NCBI RefSeq assembly: GCF_000186345.1
Contig: NC_014962.1
Location: forward strand, 434,001-498,000
DNA length: 64,000 bases
Source of the DNA: Isosphaera pallida ATCC 43644
Lineage (GTDB): Bacteria; Planctomycetota; Planctomycetia; Isosphaerales; Isosphaeraceae
Direction of reading: 5' to 3'
The notes beneath the pieces were generated by a model. The model had not been told where the DNA came from, ran no database searches, and worked only from the letters and a program-made list of their open reading frames with translations. Below, in pieces: positions 33,752 to 64,000 of this stretch (position 1 is its first letter; each line of letters opens with the position of its first letter). The position numbers and the translations under genes are program-made.

Positions 33752-34783
33752 TTAGGGGCAGGAAGACTCGAACGATCGTTGAAGAATCTCCAGTTCACCG
33801 CGTCCGAACGAGTGCGAGCGCCCAGTGGTCAGGTTACGGAACCGAACCACCGCCGGGCTGAACAGGGCGGGGTCGATTTTGTAGAAGTTGAACCCGGCTT
33901 GGCGGAAGACCTCCGCGAAGGGCGCGCCGTGGGCGGGCGAAGCGCATGAGGGCACCTGGGGACCGATTTGAGCCAACGAGTCGTCGTCGCCGACGACGTG
34001 AAGCTCGACCGTCGCGCCATAGAGAATCGCGTCGTTAGTGCGGCCGATCGCCGCCAGGTCGTCGCTGGCGACCGGGGGTAAAGGGGCGACGCCGAAGCCG
34101 GCGACCAGGCGGGTGAGGTCGAAGCCCAGGGTTTCCAGTTTGTGGAGGGCGGTCTCGACCGAACGGGCGACCACCTGAATCGTGCCGGCGAGGCTGGCGG
34201 TGGGGGCAACCGCCAGCTTGACCGTCTCGGGGGGCACCCCACAACGTTGGGCAATGATCCCGACAATCTCGGGAGTCGGCAGGGTGCGGGTCTCCAACAC
34301 CCCCACCACGCCGGTTTCAGCGTCGGCCTGCTCGCGGTGGCCGATCTTGTCGAACAACGGTTCCTGGCCCGCGACTGCCCGCATCGGTCCCGAACCCATT
34401 GCGAAGAACTTGGGCGCGGCACCGCTTAGCGCCCAACCGGCGTATTGCGACGCCAAACACGCCGCCACCGGATGATCGGTCCAGACCTGGACCCCCGGCC
34501 AGGGGCCGATTCCAACCGCTCCGGCTGGCACCAGATTGACCTCCCCCAGACCCGCCAGGCCAATCCGCGCTAAATCCCGCCCCGCCGCCAATCCTCCCGG
34601 CGCGGCGATTCCCGCGTCCAAAACGATTCCACCCCCTTCGACACCGTGAACCGCGACCCGCGCTTCCCAAGCCCGACTTCGGAGCAATTCGAATTCACGG
34701 GCGGCTCGCCTGTTCAGACGCGACGACTCGGGTTGAGAATCTGGTTCGGATGAACGTCGGGGCGACGGCGTAGGTGTGGTCAT
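33752..34783 (-). CDS. mch: Methenyltetrahydromethanopterin cyclohydrolase
   Basis: A 343-residue cytoplasmic enzyme that hydrolyses methenyl-H4MPT to formyl-H4MPT in the archaeal-type C1 pathway, also found in methylotrophs and planctomycetes. Family segments seen are the N-terminal LNRRAAREFELL helix, AAPGGLAAGRDLARIGLAGLGEV (seen in parts), VWTDHPVAACLASQYAGW, FFAMGSGPMRA, VLETRTLPTPEIV and FGRTNDAI-like GRTNDAILYGA. About 25 disordered residues precede the family start. It lies 22 bases after fhcC, so the two form a C1-transfer operon. Confidence 0.95.
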   Translation of the reverse strand: MTTPTPSPRRSSEPDSQPESSRLNRRAAREFELLRSRAWEARVAVHGVEGGGIVLDAGIAAPGGLAAGRDLARIGLAGLGEVNLVPAGAVGIGPWPGVQVWTDHPVAACLASQYAGWALSGAAPKFFAMGSGPMRAVAGQEPLFDKIGHREQADAETGVVGVLETRTLPTPEIVGIIAQRCGVPPETVKLAVAPTASLAGTIQVVARSVETALHKLETLGFDLTRLVAGFGVAPLPPVASDDLAAIGRTNDAILYGATVELHVVGDDDSLAQIGPQVPSCASPAHGAPFAEVFRQAGFNFYKIDPALFSPAVVRFRNLTTGRSHSFGRGELEILQRSFESSCP

Positions 34784-34805
34784 AGCAAGCTCGTTTTAGC
34801 AAAGA

Positions 34806-35741
34806 TCAGAGGGGGTCGTGAGGCAGATAGAGTTCGCCGAGGCCGTGGTGGAGCCGGTCGCCGTTGAAGCGAACCCAGCCTCGGCGGGCCAGGTGATCAG
34901 CGAACCCCTCGGGTTGACCCGCGAACGCGCCTCGTTGGGCCAAGTCGCGCAGCAGAATCGTCAGCACCGGAGACCAAAACGGCCCGACGCGGGTGAAGGT
35001 GGGGGGAAGCTGATCGGTGCCCTGCGCGAGCAGCAGGGTTCCGCGTTTCATGCCCGCGCCAGGCAGGGGACCGCAACGCCCCAGAACAACGATCGACCCG
35101 GCGATCATCTCCCAGCCAAGGGCCTGGTCGGCGTCGCCTTGGATGACCAGGTGGCCACGCCTCATGAGCCGTCCGGCCCGCGCGCCGACCCGTCCACCCA
35201 CGAAGACCCAACCGCCGCTCATTCCTTGATCGGCTCCCGGCCAGGCCCCGGCGCAGTCGTCGCCGGCGTTGCCATGAATCCTCAAAGTTCCGCCAGACAT
35301 CCCCGCGCCGGCGAACGACCCGGCGTGTCCCAATACTTCCAAAGTGCCACCGCTCATGTCGGCTCCCACCCCGGCCCCGGCGTCTCCTTCCACGATCAAC
35401 TGACCGCAACGCATGCCGCGACCAATTCCCCGCACCCGCGACCAGTCGCCCCGCAACACCAGACGCGGTTGAGGGGGAGCGCTGGAGGGCGAAGCGGGAA
35501 TCGGTTGGCGTTCCACCTCGACCACTTCGCCCAGGGTCAAACGGCGGCGGCCCAGGATCAGGCTTGGAGATGGTTCACGCGAGTCAGGGGACGCTTTGAA
35601 CGAGGGGGGAGCGGAGCCGCTTGGAACCTCGTTGGCTGTAAAGCTCTCGGGTCGAATTGCCTCGGCCAACAAGGGAAGTTCCGTGAACCCCTCGTGGATC
35701 GTGAGAAACCATTGCCAGGGGGTGGCGGTTGGGTTCACCAT
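34806..35741 (-). CDS. fhcC: Formylmethanofuran dehydrogenase subunit C / formyltransferase-hydrolase FhcC
   Basis: A protein of about 310 residues with the beta-helix of GlxC/FmdC-type subunits. Repeated Gly-rich turns (GAGVGADMSGGTLEV, GAGMSGGTLRI, GLMRRGHLVIQGD-like GRLMRRGHLVIQGD, GAGMKRGTLLL) define it. In bacteria FhcC is part of the FhcABCD complex that converts formyl-H4MPT to formate. No fhcA, B or D is in this window. The start is uncertain. The frame is open to 35885, but no Shine-Dalgarno sequence supports that end; the ATG at 35741 was chosen because it precedes the LTLGEVVEVE segment by a reasonable length. Confidence 0.88.
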   Translation of the reverse strand: MVNPTATPWQWFLTIHEGFTELPLLAEAIRPESFTANEVPSGSAPPSFKASPDSREPSPSLILGRRRLTLGEVVEVERQPIPASPSSAPPQPRLVLRGDWSRVRGIGRGMRCGQLIVEGDAGAGVGADMSGGTLEVLGHAGSFAGAGMSGGTLRIHGNAGDDCAGAWPGADQGMSGGWVFVGGRVGARAGRLMRRGHLVIQGDADQALGWEMIAGSIVVLGRCGPLPGAGMKRGTLLLAQGTDQLPPTFTRVGPFWSPVLTILLRDLAQRGAFAGQPEGFADHLARRGWVRFNGDRLHHGLGELYLPHDPL

Positions 35742-36271
35742 GATGGTTGCGAATTCGCCCAAGGCGAGGCGGCGCAAATGCCGCAGGGGAACCTCAAGCA
35801 AGCGGTCGTGGACCGCTTCAAAGCGATCGTGATTCGAACCGAGAACTCCCCGCGCGCCAAGAGGGCAGGGGCGTGTCCTGTCCAACCAGGTTAGGGTTGC
35901 CGGTCGAGGGAGGCTGGTTGACTGTTAGCGGTAGCGGCGTCCCCACGCTCGCGTTGCCGCCATGCGGATCAATTCCATTCGGCGGTGCTGGCCAATCCGA
36001 TCGTCCCGACGGTTGGTTTCCGGTGATCTTCGATCCAACGGAGTTGTTCCCACGATTGAGACGAGGGGTGAAGGGACGCGAGGAGCAAGAGATGCCCAAG
36101 GTGCTCGCCCACATTGGGGGGCGCTTCCCAAGCCCAGGGTCACGCCCTAGGCTTGGGGAACGACCCGGTTGGGGTCAGAGATGACCGGCCGACCGAATTT
36201 TGACGTTGAGAAGATCGGATCGGCTGTTGAGACGTGAACAATTCGGCTGATTGTCGGCACGGCGTGGTCGG
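35742..36271. other. Intergenic region between fhcC and the acyltransferase operon
   Basis: About 530 bases (or 390 if fhcC starts at 35885) without a convincing gene. It contains a strong hairpin at 36127-36157 and presumably the fhcC-mch promoter. Confidence 0.5.
36127..36157 (-). terminator. Strong hairpin downstream of the ketosynthase-ACP-acyltransferase operon
   Basis: CCCAAGCC pairs with GGCTTGGG, one C/A mismatch follows, then AGGG pairs with CCCT around a five-base loop. It lies 115 bases after the last gene of the leftward operon. There is no long T-run, so Rho-independent termination is not certain. Confidence 0.55.
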
Positions 36272-37228
36272 TCAGTGACGTTCGACGTGTTGCAGCGCGG
36301 CGGCGGAGACCGAGATATCCGGGTCGGAAAGCCAGAAGAAATAATCGTTGCTGTTGAGCGGGGAGGCGGCCACCCGTCGCTCGATTTCGACGAGAGCTAA
36401 ACGCATCCACGGCGTGGGGTTGGCTCGAAGCGCTTCGGGAGGAACGGAAAGGGCCGGAAGGAATTCCAGTCGCGATGCCCCGTCAGGCTCCAAGTGGCTG
36501 AAAACCTGAACAACCGGAGCGCCACTCATCGCCGCCAGAGTTACCCACGTCGTCGAAAACCGGAATCGCTTTCCCAGGAACTCGACCTCGGCGGTGTGCG
36601 AGTCGATCCACTGCACGTCCGAAGCCATCATGACCACCATTCCGGCCCGAAGCGCTTTCGACGCCTTGAGGACCGAGGCGGCCGCCTCCGCCGGCTCCAT
36701 CTTGCGGGAAATGAACATCTTTTTCTGACCCAGTGGTCCATCCTGGTCGAAGTAGTTGCTCATGAGCCGCGACACCCGACGCGGACGCTCCATATACATC
36801 CGCAGGGGATAACCTTCGCGGATCATCCAATGAGCCTGCATGAGATTGCCGCCGTAGTGGTTGCTCAGCAGGATGACACCTCGGCGTTGCGCCAGCGCTT
36901 CGTCGAGATGTTCCCGACCCTCGATCTCAAAGACGCTCCGCGCCCGCTCGTCGTCCAGACCGTCCAGCAGAAGGTCGCGGGTGCGGAACCGGATGTGGTA
37001 GCCCGCCAACTCTCGCGCGGTCTCGACTACGTCCCAGTCGGTTTGGAAGTGGGCTTTGCCCGCCTCGACAGCGCGATCGAATCGCAAACGCACCGACGCG
37101 AGATGGCGATATTCCCAACGCCCAATCGCCGAGAGCGAACGCGATGCTTGCCGTGGCTCCAACCGCTTCAGGAAAGGAAAGGTGAACCGCAACAAAAATT
37201 TACGGAAGTTCAAACCATGACGCCGCAT
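36272..37228 (-). CDS. LpxL/HtrB-like acyltransferase (LABLAT superfamily)
   Basis: A 318-residue protein with an N-terminal basic/hydrophobic anchor (FRKFLLRFTFPFLKRL) and an LpxL-like acyltransferase domain. The motif region is VILLSNHYGGNLMQAHW: His124 is present, but position 129, where the HX4(D/E) motif needs an acid, is Leu. Later segments VVMMASDVQWIDSHTAEVEFLGKRF (seen in parts) and FWLSDP fit the superfamily. In its operon it would take an acyl group from the ACP made by the ketosynthase and attach it to a lipid or other acceptor. GGGAG lies seven bases before the ATG. It follows the ACP after 85 bases. Confidence 0.85.
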   Translation of the reverse strand: MRRHGLNFRKFLLRFTFPFLKRLEPRQASRSLSAIGRWEYRHLASVRLRFDRAVEAGKAHFQTDWDVVETARELAGYHIRFRTRDLLLDGLDDERARSVFEIEGREHLDEALAQRRGVILLSNHYGGNLMQAHWMIREGYPLRMYMERPRRVSRLMSNYFDQDGPLGQKKMFISRKMEPAEAAASVLKASKALRAGMVVMMASDVQWIDSHTAEVEFLGKRFRFSTTWVTLAAMSGAPVVQVFSHLEPDGASRLEFLPALSVPPEALRANPTPWMRLALVEIERRVAASPLNSNDYFFWLSDPDISVSAAALQHVERH

Positions 37229-37313
37229 CGCGGGACTCCCTTCCCGAACGATTCGAGCCGATCTCGAATCCCGTTCATGTCGAAATCGAAGTCGTTCGAT
37301 CGTGGCGAACGGG

Positions 37314-37601
37314 TCACACCTGGGGCAAACGTTGAGCGACGTAGGTGGTCAGCGCCTCCAGAGTGGTCAGCTTCACCACGTCGTCGTCGTCGATTTCAAC
37401 GCCAAAGCGGTCCTGGACTTGAAGCATCACTCCCACCAGGTCCAGCGAGTCGATCCCCAGGTCCTCGACGAGGCGGCTGGAGGGTTGCATGATCCGATCG
37501 GCTGGCAGCTTGGCGGCGCGTCGAACCTCGTCGGCCACCTGAGATAAGAGGTCGTCGGCGACGGCGGAGCCGGAAATCGGGGGCGTGGTCCTCATGGTCA
37601 T
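37314..37601 (-). CDS. Acyl carrier protein (first of two at this locus)
   Basis: A 95-residue acyl carrier protein. The phosphopantetheine attachment site is EDLGIDSLDLVGVMLQVQ with Ser52. Helix IV and the acidic helix III are as in type II fatty-acid carrier proteins. Its ATG overlaps the ketosynthase stop (ATGA), so the two are translationally coupled. The gene lies inside a longer antisense-like open frame and is easily missed. It is probably dedicated to the adjacent ketosynthase rather than to bulk fatty acid synthesis. Confidence 0.93.
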   Translation of the reverse strand: MTMRTTPPISGSAVADDLLSQVADEVRRAAKLPADRIMQPSSRLVEDLGIDSLDLVGVMLQVQDRFGVEIDDDDVVKLTTLEALTTYVAQRLPQV

Positions 37602-38893
37602 GACGCAATCCTTCCGAAGATCAGGGCGTTGTTGGTGCCGCCGAAGCCGAAGGAGGCTGACATCACGGCGGACAGGTCGATTCGACGAGCCTGGTGAGGC
37701 ACGAAATCCAGGTCGAGTTCGGGGTCGGGCTGATAATTCAATGTCGGCGGCACGATCCCCTGGCTGAGCGAACGCACCGCCACGGCGGCTTCGATCGCCG
37801 AGGCCGCCCCCAAAGCGTGACCCAGCGCTCCCTTGATCGACGCGACCGCCAGGTTGGAAACCGCCGAACCGAACACCGCTTTGATCGCTTGGGTTTCGAC
37901 CCGGTCGTTGACCTTGGTGCTGGTGCCGTGGGCGTTGTAATGGCCAATCGCCTCCGGCTCCAGACCAGAACGGTCCAGCGCAGTTCGCAGACAGGCCTCG
38001 ATGCGAGCGCCGTGCGGCATCGCCATGTGGTGGCCGTCGCTGTTGACCGCCCAGGCCAGCAACTCGGCGTGGGGTCGCAAGCCCATCCGCTCGACCGCGG
38101 TTTCGGAAGCCAGTACGATCATGCCGGCCCCTTCGGCCAACACGAATCCGGCCCGATCGCCGCTGAAGGGACGCGACGCCTGCGACGGGTCGGACTCGGC
38201 CCGATCCCCCGGCTTGCCTGCGTAGAGTGCCTTCATGGTGGCAAACCCATTGACGATCATCGGCGTGAGCGCGCTTTCCGACGCGCCGCACAACGCCAGA
38301 TCGATTTCGCCGGCCCGAATCATCATGCCGCCTAACGCAACCGCGTGTCCTCCCGAAGCACAGGCGTTGGCCGGAGCGAATCCCGGCCCGAAGACCCCAA
38401 GCTGCCGCGCGATTTGACCGGCCTCCTGATTGATAATTAGACCGGGGATCAGGTAGGGACTGACCGCCAACGTGGTTCGTTTAGCTGCTTTGGCGACCTC
38501 GTTCTCGAACAGATCCATGCCGCCCAGCGCTGAGCCGACCAGCACGCCGACCCGATCGGGGTCGAAGCTGTCGCGGGATGGGGTCTGGCGCTCGTGCAAA
38601 CCGGCGTCGCGCCAGGCTTCGCGGGCGGCCTCCAGCGCAAAGTGGATCGAGCGGACTTCAAGCTTGGCCGCCTCGCCGATCATCTCGGCAGGACCAGGTT
38701 GAAACGTCTCGACGACTCCGGCGATGTCCTGGAGAAAACGGTCGCGTGGCATCGACTCATGACGCTTGAGGCCAGAGCGTCCGGCAATCAGTCCGGCCCA
38801 GGTCTCCTCCAAAGTGGACCCGAGGCAGGTCACGGCTCCGAGGCCCACCACAAAAACCCGGCCGCCTTGCCCACGTCCCGCCTGATCGCCCAT
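37598..38893 (-). CDS. Beta-ketoacyl-ACP synthase II-like ketosynthase
   Basis: A 431-residue thiolase-fold condensing enzyme that extends acyl-ACP with malonyl-ACP. The Cys-His-His triad is complete: Cys178 in NACASGGHAVALGG, His322 in YNAHGTSTKVND and His359 in KGALGHALGAA. The C-terminal SFGFGGTNNALIF is intact. It leads the operon with a coupled ACP and an LpxL-like acyltransferase, which suggests a specialised acyl chain rather than housekeeping synthesis. I chose the ATG at 38893, which has GGAGG 10 bases upstream and precedes the VFVVGLGAVTCLG strand. The frame is open to 39349 but reads as non-coding there. Confidence 0.92.
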   Translation of the reverse strand: MGDQAGRGQGGRVFVVGLGAVTCLGSTLEETWAGLIAGRSGLKRHESMPRDRFLQDIAGVVETFQPGPAEMIGEAAKLEVRSIHFALEAAREAWRDAGLHERQTPSRDSFDPDRVGVLVGSALGGMDLFENEVAKAAKRTTLAVSPYLIPGLIINQEAGQIARQLGVFGPGFAPANACASGGHAVALGGMMIRAGEIDLALCGASESALTPMIVNGFATMKALYAGKPGDRAESDPSQASRPFSGDRAGFVLAEGAGMIVLASETAVERMGLRPHAELLAWAVNSDGHHMAMPHGARIEACLRTALDRSGLEPEAIGHYNAHGTSTKVNDRVETQAIKAVFGSAVSNLAVASIKGALGHALGAASAIEAAVAVRSLSQGIVPPTLNYQPDPELDLDFVPHQARRIDLSAVMSASFGFGGTNNALIFGRIAS

Positions 38894-39030
38894 GAGTGGC
38901 CCGCCTCCCCAATCCTGGGGTCGTTCCAAATCTTCCGGCTCGCGTTGGCCTGGGTCAACTGGAGCCGGGCGGAAATCCAATCGGCCGTTGTCCATAATCG
39001 GTTGGGCGGCCCGTTGAACTCGATGGATCT

Positions 39031-39918
39031 TTGACCAAGCCGCGGGGATTTGCGAGAATCGCCCCGCTGTTTTTCCCCGTCCGCGAGTCTTCCCGCGTGG
39101 GACCACCGCTTCTGTTTGTTCCCTGGTCTCCCGGTTCCGAGCTTGCCGCCGTGTCCTCCCTGACCCGCTTGCGCCGCTTCCTGGCCACCGCCGACCATCC
39201 CGCCGCCCGCCTGGTACGCTCACTGAGGCGCGGGGTGCGAACGTTCCACCTGCCAGCCCCCCGCCTGGTGGTGGTTCCGTTGGCGAATTTGTATCTAGTG
39301 TGCCGAGAGACGTGGGCGTTTCTTCTGCGGGTGCTGGTGTGCGAGCCATACTTCAAGGCGTTCTGCACCCGCTACGGCCGCAACCTCCGCACTGGGGAGT
39401 TTCTGCACTACGTCACCGGGCGGGGTGTCATCGAGATTGGCGACGATGTTACTTTAGATGGAAAGATCGACATCGCCTTCGCGTCGCGGTTTTCCGATCG
39501 GCCTACTTTGAGGATCGGCGATCGCACCGGTTTGGGTCATCAGTGTCGTCTGGTGATCGCCCGCGCCATTACGATCGGCTCGGATTGCCGCATCGCCGGA
39601 GGGGTCGTCCTGTTCGATTCCAGCGGCCATCCCTCCGACCCCCAACGCCGTCGTGCCGGGGAACCACCTGGTCCCGAGGACGTCAAACCGATCGTGGTGG
39701 AGGACAATGTGTGGATCGGAATGAACGCCACCATCTTCCCGGGCGTCACTTTGGGCGAAGGGAGCGTTGTGGCGACCGGCTCAGTGGTCATGGCCGACGT
39801 TCCCCCTTATACTATGGTCGCGGGGAATCCGGCTCGCAAGGTGGCCAAGCTCGATCCTCCCCCGGATTCCCAGCAGGTCGATCCCACACCGCTTCACGTC
39901 GCCCAACCAGTTCCTTGA
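39031..39918 (+). CDS. Hexapeptide-repeat (left-handed beta helix) acyltransferase
   Basis: A protein of up to 295 residues. The N-terminal 120 residues are basic and include a hydrophobic stretch (LVVVPLANLYLV). Residues about 130-270 form hexapeptide repeats (VIEIGDDVTLDGKIDIAF, LRIGDRTGLGHQCRL, VWIGMNATIFPGVTLGEGSV, VVMADVPPYTMVAGNPARKV), as in CysE/NodL/xenobiotic acetyltransferases. The acceptor is unknown. It heads a rightward operon with a second ACP and an amino acid:carrier-protein ligase. The start is uncertain: the frame opens with TTG at 39031, with GTG at 39097 and 39151 as alternatives, and none has a good Shine-Dalgarno sequence. Confidence 0.85.
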   Translation: MTKPRGFARIAPLFFPVRESSRVGPPLLFVPWSPGSELAAVSSLTRLRRFLATADHPAARLVRSLRRGVRTFHLPAPRLVVVPLANLYLVCRETWAFLLRVLVCEPYFKAFCTRYGRNLRTGEFLHYVTGRGVIEIGDDVTLDGKIDIAFASRFSDRPTLRIGDRTGLGHQCRLVIARAITIGSDCRIAGGVVLFDSSGHPSDPQRRRAGEPPGPEDVKPIVVEDNVWIGMNATIFPGVTLGEGSVVATGSVVMADVPPYTMVAGNPARKVAKLDPPPDSQQVDPTPLHVAQPVP

Positions 39919-39972
39919 CCACCTCGAAGGGACGCGATCCCACCACACTGATCAAACGCCCTCCCTATTGCC

Positions 39973-40218
39973 ATGAACCCAACATCCACCTCTGGAACCC
40001 CGGTCGCCGAGATTGTCGACATGATCAAACGCCTTGGCAAGCTCGAATCCCTTGATCCTTCAGTCGATTTTTACGAGGCTGGGTTTAGCTCGATCAACGC
40101 TCTTCAACTGTTGACCGAACTCGAGGATCGCTTCAAGGTAACCCTCGCCGACGACGACTTCATCGCGGCCCGCACGGCGGTTGCGCTTCGCGACCTGATT
40201 GATGCTCAACGCCGTTGA
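39973..40218 (+). CDS. Acyl carrier protein (second, next to the amino acid:carrier protein ligase)
   Basis: An 81-residue carrier protein. The attachment segment is YEAGFSSINALQLLTELED, with Ser40 as the phosphopantetheine site in place of the usual DSL context. The rest is an ACP helix bundle ending VALRDLIDAQRR. It lies 54 bases after the acyltransferase and 58 bases before the ligase gene. Enzymes of the ligase family are known to aminoacylate the prosthetic group of such a dedicated small carrier protein, so this is the probable partner. Confidence 0.92.
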   Translation: MNPTSTSGTPVAEIVDMIKRLGKLESLDPSVDFYEAGFSSINALQLLTELEDRFKVTLADDDFIAARTAVALRDLIDAQRR

Positions 40219-40276
40219 TGTGGAATCGGATGTCTCCGCTCAAACCGATCCGATCAAATGAAGGGTGGTCCGCGCC

Positions 40277-41530
40277 ATGATGTCGCCCCAGACCTTGACC
40301 ATCACGTTGGCCAAACCTGCCAACGACATGGTGCAGGAGGAAATCCTCAAACAGATTCCCCACCTTTCACCTCGCCTGGCGCGTCCGCGGTTTGCGTCCG
40401 ACGGCCTGACTGTCGAAGTCGATTGGGTTGGTGAACCGGCGGATCAGGGAAAGGCGTCCACCTCGGAAGACCTGTCGGCTCATATTGAGGAGCTTCGCGG
40501 TCGGATCGCCGCGGTTTGCGCCAAGGTGCAACGCGGCCTGCGCAGCCTGGAACGCAAGATTGTCTACACCGCCCAAGCCGAAGCCCAGTTGGGTCAGCCT
40601 GACTTTTTCCGAGGAGCGGCCCACCTCGACCAGCCGCCCGGGGTCCACTTCACCGGACTGGGCCAGGCGATTCTCGAAGGCGCGCCTCTACGTCTGTTTG
40701 AGGCGATCGACCGCCGCATCGTCACCCTTGGCCGCGCCTACCGCGCCGAACCGATGCGAATTTCCACTCTGATTCCCCCCGACACCCTAGCCAAGTGTGA
40801 CTATTTCCGCTCCTTTCCCCACACCGTCACCTTCGCCTCGCACTTGTTGGAGGACGCCGACCGCATCGACGCCTTCCGCAACCGCCACGCCGAAATCAAT
40901 CACTTGGACGACCACGCCGCGGCCGACCTCGACCAACCCAAAGCCTGCCTTTCCCCAGCCGCATGTTATCATGTCTATAAAGTTTACCAAGGCCGGTCGA
41001 TTCCAGCCGAGGGAGTGGTTCGCTCCGTTTGCGGTAAGTGCTTTCGCTATGAGTCGGCCGGTTTGGGTGGACTACGACGGTTGTGGGATTTCACCATGCG
41101 GGAGGTGGTATTTCTCGGGACGGCAGATCATGTGCTGAAACTTCGAGAACAGGCCATTGTCCAGGTTGGCGAGATTCTGGAGGAGTTTGGTCTGGCGGGA
41201 CTGATCCGAACCGCCTCCGATCCATTCTTTATCGCGCCCGACTCGGTGGGCAAAACCTATTTCCAACTCTCCTCGGCCACCAAGTACGAGGTGGCCCTGC
41301 CGTTGCCGGATGGATCGCGGTTGGCGGTGGGTTCGCTCAACTATCACACCGACTTCTTCGGTCGTGCCTTCGACGTGACCAACGCCGGAGGGGGGTTCAT
41401 GCATTCGGTCTGCATCGCCTTTGGGTTAGAGCGATTTGTTCATGCGTTTCTGGCACGGCATGGTTGCGACCCCGATGGTTGGCCCCGTGCCGTGAGGGAT
41501 CATCTAGGCGACGGCCAGGGAGTTTGTTGA
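40277..41530 (+). CDS. Amino acid:[carrier protein] ligase (class II SerRS-like)
   Basis: A 417-residue homologue of the catalytic core of atypical (methanogen-type) seryl-tRNA synthetase. The known bacterial members lack tRNA aminoacylation and instead load glycine or alanine onto a carrier protein. Here the ATP-binding motif 2 is CFRYES ... FTMREVVFLG and motif 3 is CIAFGLERFVHAFLARHG. Probable zinc ligands are Cys230 (PAACYHVY), Glu276 and Cys379, whose spacing fits the family. The N-terminal 130 residues do not resemble the long tRNA-binding domain of SerRS. AAGGGTGG precedes the ATG at 40277; a GTG at 40265 is in frame. GNAT follows after three bases. Confidence 0.9.
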   Translation: MMSPQTLTITLAKPANDMVQEEILKQIPHLSPRLARPRFASDGLTVEVDWVGEPADQGKASTSEDLSAHIEELRGRIAAVCAKVQRGLRSLERKIVYTAQAEAQLGQPDFFRGAAHLDQPPGVHFTGLGQAILEGAPLRLFEAIDRRIVTLGRAYRAEPMRISTLIPPDTLAKCDYFRSFPHTVTFASHLLEDADRIDAFRNRHAEINHLDDHAAADLDQPKACLSPAACYHVYKVYQGRSIPAEGVVRSVCGKCFRYESAGLGGLRRLWDFTMREVVFLGTADHVLKLREQAIVQVGEILEEFGLAGLIRTASDPFFIAPDSVGKTYFQLSSATKYEVALPLPDGSRLAVGSLNYHTDFFGRAFDVTNAGGGFMHSVCIAFGLERFVHAFLARHGCDPDGWPRAVRDHLGDGQGVC

Positions 41531-41533
41531 GCG

Positions 41534-42667
41534 ATGACCTCCCGCGGCGCGACCTCGGATGGACGTATCGAGTTTCCAGCCTGGACGGATGGGATCAAGC
41601 CAATGGCCGCATGTTTGCGAGCCGCTTGGCCGCCACCCCGGTTAGATCAATCGCCAACCTATCTGCGTTGGTGCGGGCGTGACGATCCCCACGCCGCGCT
41701 GGCGTTGGCGAGCGACGCCTCGGGCCGGGTGTTTGGGTCGGTCGGGCTGGTTCCTCGGCGGTTCCGCATCGGTTGCGACCACGAAGCCCAGGAGGGCTGG
41801 CTGTTGTCATTCGTGGCAGTCGATCCCTCGCGGCGTGGCGAGGGCTGGGCCGGTCGCCTTTACGACGCCCTTTTGAATCGCGTCGCTTCCGAGGCCCGCG
41901 TGAGTCGGCGACCGCTCAGGCCGATCCTCGGCTTCGCGCCGGTTGCCACCTCGGGCGAACATCTGTTGCGGTCACGTGTCGTTCGGGCGGGCTACTCTGC
42001 CCACGATCTGGGGTGTCTCCAGACCTACGTTCGCCTCACACGCCCCGAAGACGCACCCCCGCGACTCGATTCAGCGGTTTGGACTCTCGTTTCAGGAGAC
42101 TCTCAAGAACAAACTCACTCCAGCACCGACTGGGTTAGTGAGTATCGTACCTTGATTTATCAAGGAGGTTCGCTAGGGTCCGAATCGCTTTTGACGGAGG
42201 CAGACGATCCGGTGGCGTGGTTGGCTTGGGCCAATGATCCCAGGGGGCGTGTGGTGGTGATCCATCGTCGCCACGACGGCCGATTGGATTGGGCTGCGGG
42301 TTTAGTCTGGGCGGTGGTTGCTGAAGCCGACCAGGTTCGCCGTGTGCTTCAAGTCGAACGAGTGGTGATCACGCCGGATCGCCCTCCCATCTGGGCCGAG
42401 CTTGCCGAGTTGGGCGATTACTTGGCCGCGAATGGATGCGGATCGCGGGGTGAACCTCGCTTCGATCCCAAAGCGCCGCCTCCCATACTGTCGATCGCCT
42501 TCGATCCGACCCGCCCCGCGACCGCTTCAGGACCATGGACCGATCCAAGATCAGCTCGGTTTCGGGCCGTCGGCGCAGCCTTCAGAGCCATTTGGTTCAC
42601 TCCGACTTGCGAGTCGTCAACGCCCAACAGGATGAATCCCACCTGGACGCATCTGGAAATCATTTGA
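41534..42667 (+). CDS. GNAT-family N-acetyltransferase
   Basis: A 377-residue protein. The acetyl-CoA-binding motif A is FVAVDPSRRGEGWAGRLYDAL at about residues 90-112 (quoted here in part: VDPSRRGEGWAGRLYDA). The remainder, from residue 170, shows no clear second GNAT domain and may be a degenerate copy or a substrate-binding extension. The gene begins three bases after the carrier-protein ligase, so they are surely co-transcribed. It could use the aminoacyl-loaded carrier protein as donor instead of acetyl-CoA, as some GNAT-fold aminoacyltransferases do; this is inference. Confidence 0.82.
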   Translation: MTSRGATSDGRIEFPAWTDGIKPMAACLRAAWPPPRLDQSPTYLRWCGRDDPHAALALASDASGRVFGSVGLVPRRFRIGCDHEAQEGWLLSFVAVDPSRRGEGWAGRLYDALLNRVASEARVSRRPLRPILGFAPVATSGEHLLRSRVVRAGYSAHDLGCLQTYVRLTRPEDAPPRLDSAVWTLVSGDSQEQTHSSTDWVSEYRTLIYQGGSLGSESLLTEADDPVAWLAWANDPRGRVVVIHRRHDGRLDWAAGLVWAVVAEADQVRRVLQVERVVITPDRPPIWAELAELGDYLAANGCGSRGEPRFDPKAPPPILSIAFDPTRPATASGPWTDPRSARFRAVGAAFRAIWFTPTCESSTPNRMNPTWTHLEII

Positions 42668-61707: not shown

Positions 61708-63228
61708 ATGTCATTTCAAGGGAACGAGTCGAAGGCCAACGAACAGACTTTAGGGGAGGCTGTCCGGAGCGGGGCGGCGTGCTGTGTCGCTGGCGGCTGG
61801 CGATCGCTTTGGCCGTTCGGGTTCCTTGCCGTGTGGTTGGCCTACGCGATTTTCACCGTGCTGTACTTTCCCAACGAGGCCGACCCCGAGTTTCCCCAGG
61901 TGGTTCGACCGACCCTCAGCCCGTGGCCTCCGGCGGCCTACCGTTTGGCCGAGCCGGGCGACACCATCGACCGCGCCGCGATGTACGCCGCTTCGGTCGC
62001 TTTGATCTATGCGACGGTGGGTCTAATCTGGGCGTTGGCCGAGCGGACCCGGCGACGAACCGAGGGCGCGGCGTGGGGGACCGCATGGGTGGTCTCCTTC
62101 CTGCTCTACTTCGACTCGTGCGCTCCTTACCCAACCTGGGATGGTTGGCATGGCTGGAACTGGCGGGCCGCGTTCGACTCGAAGACACCCACCGCGTTGC
62201 GGATCGCTTTGGGAGGTGGTTTGGTTGGGTTGCTCGGACTGGCGGCGTTGCTGGCAGCCCGCGAGGGTCGGGGCTGGGTCGCGCGGGCGCGACGCGCTGA
62301 GGGGCGGGTCAAGGCGTTGTTGGGGCTGGCCTTGATCCTGGTGGGCCTGCGTTTGGTCGAATGGCCCAACCCCGAACCGATCGGCTATTGGCCACGTTGG
62401 TGCGGCTTTGGGGGGATTGCCTCGTGGGCGGCAGTGCTGTTGCTCAGCTTTCCCCGCCTGACCTTGGGCCGCTGGACCTGGCCGGCGCGAGGGGCGGCGC
62501 TGGGGGGGCTGGGTCTTCTGGTGGCCTTTGGCGGGTTCGGCTTCTGGCACCATCGGCCCCTGGGCCGTTTCAAGGAGGTTGAGGCGGGACGGCTCTACAT
62601 GTCGGCTATGCCGACCGCGGAGGGGCTGGAACTGGCCCACGCCCGCCACGGCTTCAAGACAATCATCAACCTCTTTCCCGAAGCGACCTTGGGTCGGCAC
62701 CCCGACTCCGAGGCCGAGCAACGCTTCGCCCGTACGCACGGCATCCGTTATCTGGAGAGTCCCGGACGAGTAGAACTCAACGGCGCGTTTTTGCGGGAGA
62801 CGCTTGACCTGACCCGCGACCCCGCGGCCTGGCCGATTTTGGTCCACTGCCACGCCTGCATGGATCGGACCCCGGCCTGGGTGGGCTTCTTCCGCTATCG
62901 GGAGAAGGGCTGGGAGTTGAAGGAGGTTTGGAAGGCGATCGAACAACATCGCGGTCTGCGACCCAAGGCGACGGTCTTTTTGCTGTATCACCATGTCATT
63001 CCACGACTTGGAGTGACCTGGCCAGATCCGGCTCCGTTCACGGCGTGGTTGGCGGGGCTGACGCGGGGGGTGCCCGATCCGTATGATGGGATGCTACCCG
63101 ATCCAGTTCCGGCGATTGACCCGATCGGCTCGCCGCCGGCCCGTTTGGCCGCCGATGGCCAGCAACCGCCCGACGCGCTCACGCGATCCGAACCGAACGC
63201 CGCCACCGCCCCTCCGGTTCGACGATGA
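61708..63228 (+). CDS. Membrane protein with a dual-specificity-type cysteine phosphatase domain
   Basis: A 506-residue protein. The N-terminal 290 residues hold about six hydrophobic helices (FGFLAVWLAYAIFTVLYF, ALIYATVGLIWALAE, TAWVVSFLLYFDS and others). The C-terminal part is a phosphatase fold: GRLYMSAMPTAEGLELA and IINLFPEATLG lead to the catalytic HCHACMDRT, with nucleophile Cys381 and Arg387 in the CX5R motif. A conserved Asp acid was not assigned. Substrates could be phosphoprotein or phosphoinositide-like lipids. GGAGG lies 10 bases before the ATG. The last 50 residues are Pro/Ala-rich. Confidence 0.83.
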   Translation: MSFQGNESKANEQTLGEAVRSGAACCVAGGWRSLWPFGFLAVWLAYAIFTVLYFPNEADPEFPQVVRPTLSPWPPAAYRLAEPGDTIDRAAMYAASVALIYATVGLIWALAERTRRRTEGAAWGTAWVVSFLLYFDSCAPYPTWDGWHGWNWRAAFDSKTPTALRIALGGGLVGLLGLAALLAAREGRGWVARARRAEGRVKALLGLALILVGLRLVEWPNPEPIGYWPRWCGFGGIASWAAVLLLSFPRLTLGRWTWPARGAALGGLGLLVAFGGFGFWHHRPLGRFKEVEAGRLYMSAMPTAEGLELAHARHGFKTIINLFPEATLGRHPDSEAEQRFARTHGIRYLESPGRVELNGAFLRETLDLTRDPAAWPILVHCHACMDRTPAWVGFFRYREKGWELKEVWKAIEQHRGLRPKATVFLLYHHVIPRLGVTWPDPAPFTAWLAGLTRGVPDPYDGMLPDPVPAIDPIGSPPARLAADGQQPPDALTRSEPNAATAPPVRR

Positions 63229-63330
63229 ACTACGAGGCAGAGTGTCGGAGTGGTCAGTCTGGATCGATGGTTTGTTATGGTTGGTGGGGTTGCGTGGTTC
63301 GCTGGATTGGTTAGAACGCCCCTCATCCTC

Positions 63331-63370
63331 ATCCTCCACCGCTTCCTGATCTCCTCCGCCGCTTCCTGAT
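63331..63370. repeat. 20-bp imperfect tandem repeat
   Basis: Two adjacent 20-base units (63331-63350 and 63351-63370) differ at two positions. They lie just upstream of the aminotransferase start, so they could influence its promoter or leader. Confidence 0.7.
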
Positions 63371-63392
63371 CACGATGGATGGATCGCCCCCG

Positions 63393-64000
63393 ATGACGAC
63401 TTCGACGCGCTTGGCCGAGTTGGGATTGAGTGACTCTGGACGCCGTACCACCCCGCCGCCGATCAGCACGTTGATGCAGTCGGCCCTTGCCAACCCCAAC
63501 CTGATTTCGTTGGCCGCCGGGTTCGTCGATCCTGAAACCCTGCCCACCGCCCTGGTGGGCGACATCGTGGCCGAATTCGCCCATGATCCGGCGCTGGGAC
63601 GCCAGGCGCTCCAGTATGGTTCGACCGGCGGCTCGCCCGATCTGCGATGGCGGATGCTGGCCGAGATGGAGCGGGAAGATCGGGTGGCGGAGGGAACCTA
63701 CGCCGCGGCCTTCGAGCGGACTCTGCTGACCACCGGCTCCCAACAGCTGCTCTCCCTGGCCGCCGACGCGCTGCTCGACCCCGGCGACATTGTGTTGGTC
63801 GATTCACCCACCTACTTCGTGTTTCTGGGGATGATGGCCTCCCGAGGAGTGCGGACCATCGGAATCGAGACCGACGAGGGGGGACTCAACCCCGAGGCTT
63901 TGGCAGAGAAGCTCGCCGAGTTGGAAGCTACGGGGGAACTCGCCCGGGTCAAGATGGTGTCGGTCGTCAGCGAGCATTCCAACCCGACCGGGGTCAGTCT
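63393..64000 (+). CDS. PLP-dependent aminotransferase (class I/II), 5' part
   Basis: The first 202 residues of a fold-type I aminotransferase, cut by the right edge. Seen are LISLAAGFVDPETLPTALVGDIV near the N-terminus (in part), LQYGSTGGSPDLRWRML, TTGSQQLLSLAADALLDPGDIVLVDSPTYF (in parts), and VVSEHSNPTGVS, the segment before the PLP Asp. The PLP lysine lies beyond the window. The start at 63393 is the second of two in-frame ATGs (the other at 63375), and neither has a strong Shine-Dalgarno sequence. Substrate unknown, possibly an aromatic or 2-aminoadipate-type amino acid. Confidence 0.9.
   Translation, partial: MTTSTRLAELGLSDSGRRTTPPPISTLMQSALANPNLISLAAGFVDPETLPTALVGDIVAEFAHDPALGRQALQYGSTGGSPDLRWRMLAEMEREDRVAEGTYAAAFERTLLTTGSQQLLSLAADALLDPGDIVLVDSPTYFVFLGMMASRGVRTIGIETDEGGLNPEALAEKLAELEATGELARVKMVSVVSEHSNPTGVS

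Follow-up and report, generated by a model that had tools for sequence, protein, structure and literature searches.

The window analysed here, a stretch of 64,000 nucleotides of Isosphaera pallida ATCC 43644 (contig C2 434001-498000 of the 5.53 Mb two-contig genome, G000), contains a divergent locus with two gene arms (Table 1). The right arm encodes a hexapeptide acyltransferase, an acyl carrier protein (ACP2), an amino acid:carrier protein ligase and a GNAT protein that is predicted from its model to be a two-domain protein with an N-myristoyltransferase (NMT)-like fold. It is best read as a self-contained cassette of sporadic occurrence, which, judging from sequence comparisons, has probably spread horizontally. 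The left arm encodes a FabF-like ketosynthase (KAS), a second carrier protein (ACP1) and an LpxL-like protein and looks like an older, separate and conserved core operon of the Isosphaeraceae; the two arms appear to be unrelated units. A preliminary description of the window had listed seven open reading frames (ORFs) of these families and a carrier protein in each arm, all of which were recovered among the window ORFs in Pfam, NCBIfam and PDB searches. Its distance of 137 bases between the starts of the arms is corrected to ~257, since the hexapeptide gene likely starts at GTG 39151, which the N-termini of homologues favour over TTG 39031.

In the mechanism proposed for the right arm, the ligase would adenylate an alpha-amino acid held by zinc, probably a small one (glycine or alanine), and pass it to the phosphopantetheine (Ppant) of ACP2. 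The NMT-like GNAT would N-acylate the aminoacyl-ACP from acyl-CoA with its own C-terminal carboxylate as the base, as in NMT acting on an N-terminal glycine. The hexapeptide enzyme would then hand the capped residue on, either to a sugar in a surface polysaccharide or to the nucleotide-sugar precursor of one. The loading of the amino acid on ACP2 is well supported by the family assignment; we infer the capping and transfer steps, as well as the substrates, the step order and the acceptor, and the scheme as a whole has about an even chance of being right. The wider proposal is put forward tentatively and falls somewhat short of that: a widespread bacterial pathway, moving horizontally, in which glycyl- or alanyl-ACP would be N-acylated by a bacterial relative of NMT through its own C-terminal carboxylate and the product transferred by the hexapeptide enzyme to exopolysaccharide, with amino acid, glycerate or other donors depending on the module.

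According to the preliminary description, enzymes of the ligase family load a dedicated carrier protein with an amino acid. The family assignment supports this, as does, indirectly, the ACP2 homologue that lies directly upstream of the ligase in all 17 close loci described below. The ligase matches Bll0957 in the PDB (E 6.5e-34). The catalytic part of its model (pLDDT 91.7; residues 119-416) has the class II fold and matches both the glycine:carrier-protein ligase (Z 33.2, rmsd 1.8 over 290 residues) and the seryl-tRNA synthetase (SerRS) of Methanosarcina barkeri (Z 30.9). Residues C234, E280 and C383 are invariant in the 39 aligned sequences and align with C131, E176 and C279 of Bll0957 (an assumed 20-residue tag being subtracted), which we take, in this numbering, to be its zinc ligands. 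The score against the PRK07080 equivalog is below the cut-off (164.9 bits against 357), and the protein carries ~115 additional N-terminal residues compared with the region of the solved ligases that it matches. Lengths of 383-407 residues were obtained for the 40 full-length homologues, their starts having been assigned by script.

The presence of a GNAT enzyme in the right arm was borne out by Pfam, with the domain in the first half of the protein only. Members of this family have diverged widely, with 22-27% identity to the window protein. When an 11-member profile was compared with PDB sequences, NMT ranked first (E 9e-9), followed by the aminoglycoside acetyltransferases (E 1.9e-6). The model is a tandem GNAT (pLDDT 76, pTM 0.80) for which, among the matches listed, 50 of 50 are NMT both in VIA-align (Z 20.1-21.0, ~300 aligned residues) and in Foldseek (E 4e-13 to 1e-11, TM 0.55-0.60). 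Its last residue, 377, is paired with the penultimate residue of human NMT1 (495 of 496; residues 361-371 of the model have pLDDT <50), and the 10 complete homologues all end exactly two residues past a conserved Glu (alignment A3 omits L086, for which the frame given was wrong). The excerpt of PMC4964394 proposes that the C-terminal carboxylate of NMT deprotonates the N-terminal glycine, with mutagenesis in support. The NMT-like fold of the model and the conserved C-terminal end make N-acylation of the amino group of aminoacyl-ACP the likely reaction.

Capping of the amino group would also fit the short GNATs and formyltransferase-like genes of other ligase loci. In the Chloroflexota, a short GNAT directly follows the ligase in 10 of 10 loci and NeuB, which belongs to nonulosonic acid synthesis, is found in the fetched locus in nine; GNATs of the same kind are present in the Acidobacteriota loci L113, L115 and L121. 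A formyltransferase-like gene is just downstream in L104 and L124 and on the opposite strand in L091. The formyltransferase-like genes are only suggestive as a sign of capping, as a sugar N-formyltransferase would look alike. The Chloroflexota ligases accompanied by NeuB, a NeuA-like cytidylyltransferase and a short GNAT are those of L100, L101, L102, L105, L108, L109, L110, L112 and L123, a gene content hinting at aminoacylated sialic-acid-like sugars.

Alternatively, the GNAT (or the hexapeptide enzyme) might itself pass the amino acid of ACP2 on to the amine of a sugar without N-acylation, in the manner of FemABX, Dlt or Alm, which we consider rather unlikely. An Acetyltransf_6 gene, which we take to resemble FemAB, is also present in L012/L084, and the single short GNAT beside the ligase and NeuB in Chloroflexota could itself be a transferase. 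Tandem GNATs of the FemABX type transfer aminoacyl groups without acetyl-CoA, according to the excerpt of PMC4964394. Profile and structure, however, both place the window GNAT nearest NMT, an acyl-CoA enzyme, among the matches listed, and transfer without capping would leave the hexapeptide enzyme without a clear role. The motif R-x-x-G-x-G/A, which we take to be that for acyl-CoA, can also be read in the GNAT sequence. FemABX is absent from the listed structure matches (50 + 50, all NMT), FemABX having not been compared directly.

The distribution of the cassette is sporadic. The ligase is present in five of the 45 genomes of the Isosphaeraceae set (hereafter the family, source genome counted in) and in seven of 392 genomes sampled from the phylum, namely the source genome and six at 30-35% identity. 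A scan of public genomes (one genome per species, 84,980 species; two peptide patterns as the start; not exhaustive) gave 42 ligase loci, whose taxa are those of the submitters' titles, mostly of metagenome-assembled genomes in which foreign contigs are possible. Loci fetched twice (L012/L084, L015/L093, L016/L096) were counted once. Neighbours were counted by tblastn because the ad hoc gene caller was crude (the KAS gene was missed and false ORFs were given); the exception is the GNAT of L090, which came from clustering (tblastn E 2e-4). The 17 close loci (ligase identity 44-56% over ~400 residues) belong by title to the Planctomycetota, Acidobacteriota and Gemmatimonadota. The hexapeptide transferase is found in 12 of these plus one weak case, directly upstream of ACP2 in nine, and the GNAT in 11. 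Among the four family relatives, three have the order hexapeptide-ACP-ligase and the fourth (G400, L016) has ACP-ligase; in this last genome, titled Singulisphaera, the pair is followed by a 2813-residue FAAL/PKS protein (L096 10228-18669). Hexapeptide genes directly follow the ligase in the Myxococcota loci L103 and L107. In the ligase tree (alignment A4, without L105, L106, L117 and L121: one near-copy, one uncertain start and two partial) a single group (100/100) of mixed phyla holds the window and 16 close rows. The Planctomycetota and the Acidobacteriota each need more than one change in this tree, which is no proof of transfer, and the end branch of the window ligase is fairly long (0.8, median 0.36).

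A surface modification, one of the products suggested in the preliminary description, is supported by the glycan genes around right-arm loci in relatives. Glycosyltransferases, UDP-GlcNAc 2-epimerase and methyltransferases are present in L012, L014 and L015, the last also with Wzy, Wzx, a Wzc-like kinase and a polysaccharide deacetylase; judging by gene content, several of the right-arm loci in relatives are exopolysaccharide clusters. Two further readings bear on this context. The first, that the right arm of I. pallida is a plain O-acetylation or secondary-metabolite remnant with no function together, is very improbable: the long end branch of the ligase and the lack of a recognised glycan gene around the cassette in the source genome are in its favour, while none of the four frames is interrupted and the ligase, ACP2 and the transferase retain their key residues. 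The second, that ligase, ACP and GNAT make a free N-acyl amino acid or small lipopeptide signal, which is released while the hexapeptide enzyme acetylates polysaccharide independently, is unlikely. PKS- or NRPS-like genes do occur near L096 and some actinobacterial loci; of the four of the latter, L118 and L122 have KAS domains and L116 has adenylation-type and large multidomain genes, and the ligase is therefore not confined to glycans. N-acyl amino acid synthases have also been described beside PEP-CTERM/exosortase genes, in a planctomycete among others, in the excerpt of PMC7293339. The pathway proposed there, however, starts from acyl-ACP and free tyrosine and, as far as that excerpt goes, requires no amino acid ligase, and nine of the 17 close loci have the hexapeptide enzyme and ACP2 as direct neighbours.

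The neighbours of the hexapeptide enzyme suggest where its acyl group comes from. Its subfamily (E up to 1e-25) has 10 matches in nine of the 45 Isosphaeraceae genomes, and at four of the 10 the neighbours are an ACP and the amino acid ligase. L125 has the run hexapeptide-methyltransferase-ACP-AMP-forming ligase, the last being closest to TIGR03098 (exosortase A system-associated) at a score below the cut-off (411 against 592), and in L126 and L127 the transferase adjoins FkbH (TIGR01686) and an ACP. In a control with 18 hexapeptide matches from nine genomes (E up to 1e-6), an ACP lies within ~1.5 kb at four of six subfamily loci compared with none of 12 other matches; this threshold misses the subfamily members in G415, G427 and G428 and one of those in G400. 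The ACP profile used comprised 13 carrier proteins, among them those of L125-L127 and of three of the four positives; the zero among 12 does not depend on this composition. In the simplest reading of these gene neighbourhoods, the acyl donor of the transferase is a charged carrier protein, and different enzymes can serve to load it. FkbH and a second ACP come shortly after the ligase in L084 (10958-12932) and L085 (10182-12129), giving two loading modules per locus.

Several observations weigh against the proposed pathway. The sequence match of the GNAT profile to NMT is limited to the first half of the protein, the model is of middling confidence (pLDDT 76), and curated NMT models are unmatched, with acetyltransferase models only in Pfam (E up to 0.1) and none in NCBIfam (E up to 0.01). 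Within the family an NMT-like GNAT was found in two genomes only, both of them among the five with the ligase, and not in the other three of these (at most 49 candidates scored per genome), in a search whose profile contains both members found and could miss very divergent ones. The transferase is missing from four and the GNAT from six of the 17 close loci, some of which are short contigs. The cassette of the source genome is in no recognised glycan cluster, the window genes being only partly annotated, and 16 queries (glycan genes, formyltransferase, MBOAT and GNATs) gave no match in the window at E 1e-8. A type I PKS/FAAL protein comes next after the G400 ligase (L016/L096), and some members of the ligase family may feed secondary metabolism; the transferase genes of this genome are on contigs other than that of the ligase. 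With the queries used, no carrier-protein module was found near three of the 10 transferase matches (two in G400, one in G395), and the pairing of donors is ambiguous in L084 and L085, where the amino acid ligase and FkbH occur together and each has an ACP. The hexapeptide protein, whose nearest solved relatives include the acetyl-CoA-using enzymes of the maltose O-acetyltransferase type, could be a plain O-acetyltransferase, and its catalytic His is not universal in homologues (GY in L128).

The preliminary description suggested that the two arms could build one product, to be refuted if relatives did not conserve them together. Comparison of relatives shows no such joint conservation, and a joint pathway was rejected as the default on the evidence of both left-arm and right-arm loci. 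In 30 left-arm loci (one per genome, 3.3 to 19 kb, some of them short contigs) no hexapeptide, ACP2, ligase or GNAT gene was found (tblastn E 1e-4). Conversely, none of the four related right-arm loci of the family has an LpxL-like or ACP1 match, and the sole KAS matches in these are in L016 (28% identity), inside the type I PKS protein. The 42 public ligase loci likewise have no LpxL-like or ACP1 match, and KAS matches only in L096 (the PKS locus, equal to L016), L118 and L122. The prevalence of the arms differs as well, an LpxL homologue being found in 44 of the 45 family genomes and the ligase in five. In the source genome the cassette does adjoin the left arm, which is itself split from the rest of its operon, and a role for both in one product, for example with the KAS/ACP1 chain as acyl donor for the GNAT or for an aminoacylated lipid, is improbable in the light of these counts. 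The position of the cassette next to this detached arm makes a shared role possible, though unsupported, in I. pallida alone.

The left arm is conserved in its own right. The LpxL-like homologue has a best identity of at least 41% in 42 of the family genomes. In 27 of the 30 left-arm loci KAS and LpxL are no more than 1.5 kb apart (exceptions L072, L074 and L082), ACP1 was detected beside LpxL in 25, and both LptF/LptG genes are present in 21, several of the remainder being on short contigs. The usual order in relatives starts with an FAA hydrolase gene, oppositely oriented, and continues as KAS-ACP-LpxL-phosphatase-aminotransferase-LptF-LptG. In the source genome this operon is split into parts ~23 kb apart, with phosphatase-aminotransferase-LptF-LptG on the other strand. 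Because LptF/LptG adjoin the left arm in relatives, a role in outer-membrane lipid assembly is suggested.

The intact KAS II-like triad noted in the preliminary description is present (Table 1) and is shared by all 28 aligned homologues; the score is below the cut-off of TIGR03150 (390.6 against 493.75). The claim of an LpxL-like acyltransferase holds for the family and not for the motif. In LpxL-type acyltransferases HX4D/E is the catalytic motif, and its acid is missing here (H124-YGGN-L), being replaced by L, M, I or V in the window protein and in 30 of 30 aligned homologues, in which the His is kept. In the PDB alignment a Leu is opposite the Asp of phosphatidylinositol mannoside acyltransferase. 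An ordinary LpxL was not accepted as the identity of this protein since the acid of the motif is absent; an altered or lost catalytic site in this core-gene product is possible from the alignment. A His-x3-His (such as HFGAH) is found at the HX4D/E site in 29 of the 30 homologues.

Elsewhere in the window, a methenyl-tetrahydromethanopterin cyclohydrolase (MCH) gene adjoins a GXGXG-domain gene (33752-35885), which is possibly a formylmethanofuran dehydrogenase subunit, making these C1 metabolism genes.

Table 1 Features of the two arms and of the detached part of the left-arm operon (positions in the window unless marked C2).
Feature	Position	Strand	Remarks
Hexapeptide acyltransferase (left-handed beta helix), right arm	39151..39918	+	Likely GTG start 39151; His in SSGHPSD
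ACP2, right arm	39973..40218	+	PF00550; presumed Ppant serine S40 in AGFSSINAL
Amino acid:carrier protein ligase, right arm	40265..41530	+	Class II synthetase-like; ~115-residue N-terminal extension; C234, E280, C383
Tandem GNAT, predicted NMT-like, right arm	41534..42667	+	PF00583, E 1.2e-6; C-terminal end conserved
LpxL-like protein, left arm	36272..37228	-	PF03279, E 3.6e-14; without acid of HX4D/E
ACP1, left arm	37314..37595	-	PF00550; presumed Ppant serine S50 in DLGIDSLDL
FabF-like ketosynthase (KAS), left arm	37598..38893	-	PF00109/PF02801; triad C178-H322-H359
Y_phosphatase2-like protein, detached left-arm operon part	61708..63228	+	Follows LpxL in relatives
Class I aminotransferase, detached left-arm operon part	63315..63998	+	Cut by window end; match from 63426
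LptF/LptG, detached left-arm operon part	C2:499014 and 500758 (C2 499014-501879)		Directly beyond window

If the proposal is correct, a biological role would be found for the amino acid:carrier protein ligases, and NMT chemistry would have a counterpart in prokaryotes, with the GNAT as a concrete bacterial candidate. The two enzymes likely to act after the ligase can be read from the cassette, which also links the ligase family to surface-glycan genes in several phyla and so makes the question directly testable. Each of the enzymes belongs to a known superfamily; what seems new is the way they are combined, a single transferase with exchangeable loading modules around it, and an NMT-like bacterial enzyme tied to a carrier protein. 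No description of a ligase-ACP-hexapeptide-GNAT cassette, or of a bacterial NMT-like enzyme in such a locus, was found among the open-licence titles listed, a weak negative. The E. coli O114 N-acetylseryl sugar, named in PMC2905691, was rejected as a direct precedent, as the gene tables in the excerpt of that paper contain no such ligase, and serves as a chemical analogy only.

Compared with the amino acid:[carrier protein] ligases (Bll0957, 3mey/4h2s; PRK07080), the window ligase has the same class II fold, zinc ligands and adjacent carrier protein; it differs in the N-terminal extension, in a PRK07080 score far below the cut-off and in belonging to a cassette of four genes that also encodes a hexapeptide transferase and an NMT-like GNAT. 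With eukaryotic NMT the GNAT shares the tandem fold and the top PDB profile match, whereas it is bacterial and 8-14% identical, and its presumed acceptor is aminoacyl-ACP and not a protein N-terminus. The hexapeptide enzyme has the repeats and the histidine region (GHPxD) of the maltose/galactoside O-acetyltransferase type. Unlike these, it has ~115 more N-terminal residues outside the PDB match and members of its subfamily are often beside carrier-protein loading genes, suggesting a carrier-protein donor. In the system of L125 the same hexapeptide subfamily is in the same short gene run as an exosortase-associated acyl ligase (TIGR03098) and an ACP, the AMP-forming acyl ligase replacing the amino acid ligase.

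A Dlt-like MBOAT partner was considered and rejected, since MBOAT genes lie near distant ligases (L017, L019; weakly L106, L113, L115) and not in the cassette. Those of L017 (5918-7036) and L019 (11879-13072), from other genomes of the phylum, are reminiscent of Dlt-type transfer. In DltABCD and AlmEFG an amino acid is placed on a small carrier protein and then passed to a surface polymer or lipid, and the right arm would be alike in the route from amino acid through carrier protein to a surface target. It differs from both in having a synthetase-like ligase in place of an adenylation domain, in the additional GNAT, and in that its presumed transferase is a hexapeptide enzyme rather than an MBOAT or LpxL-like protein.

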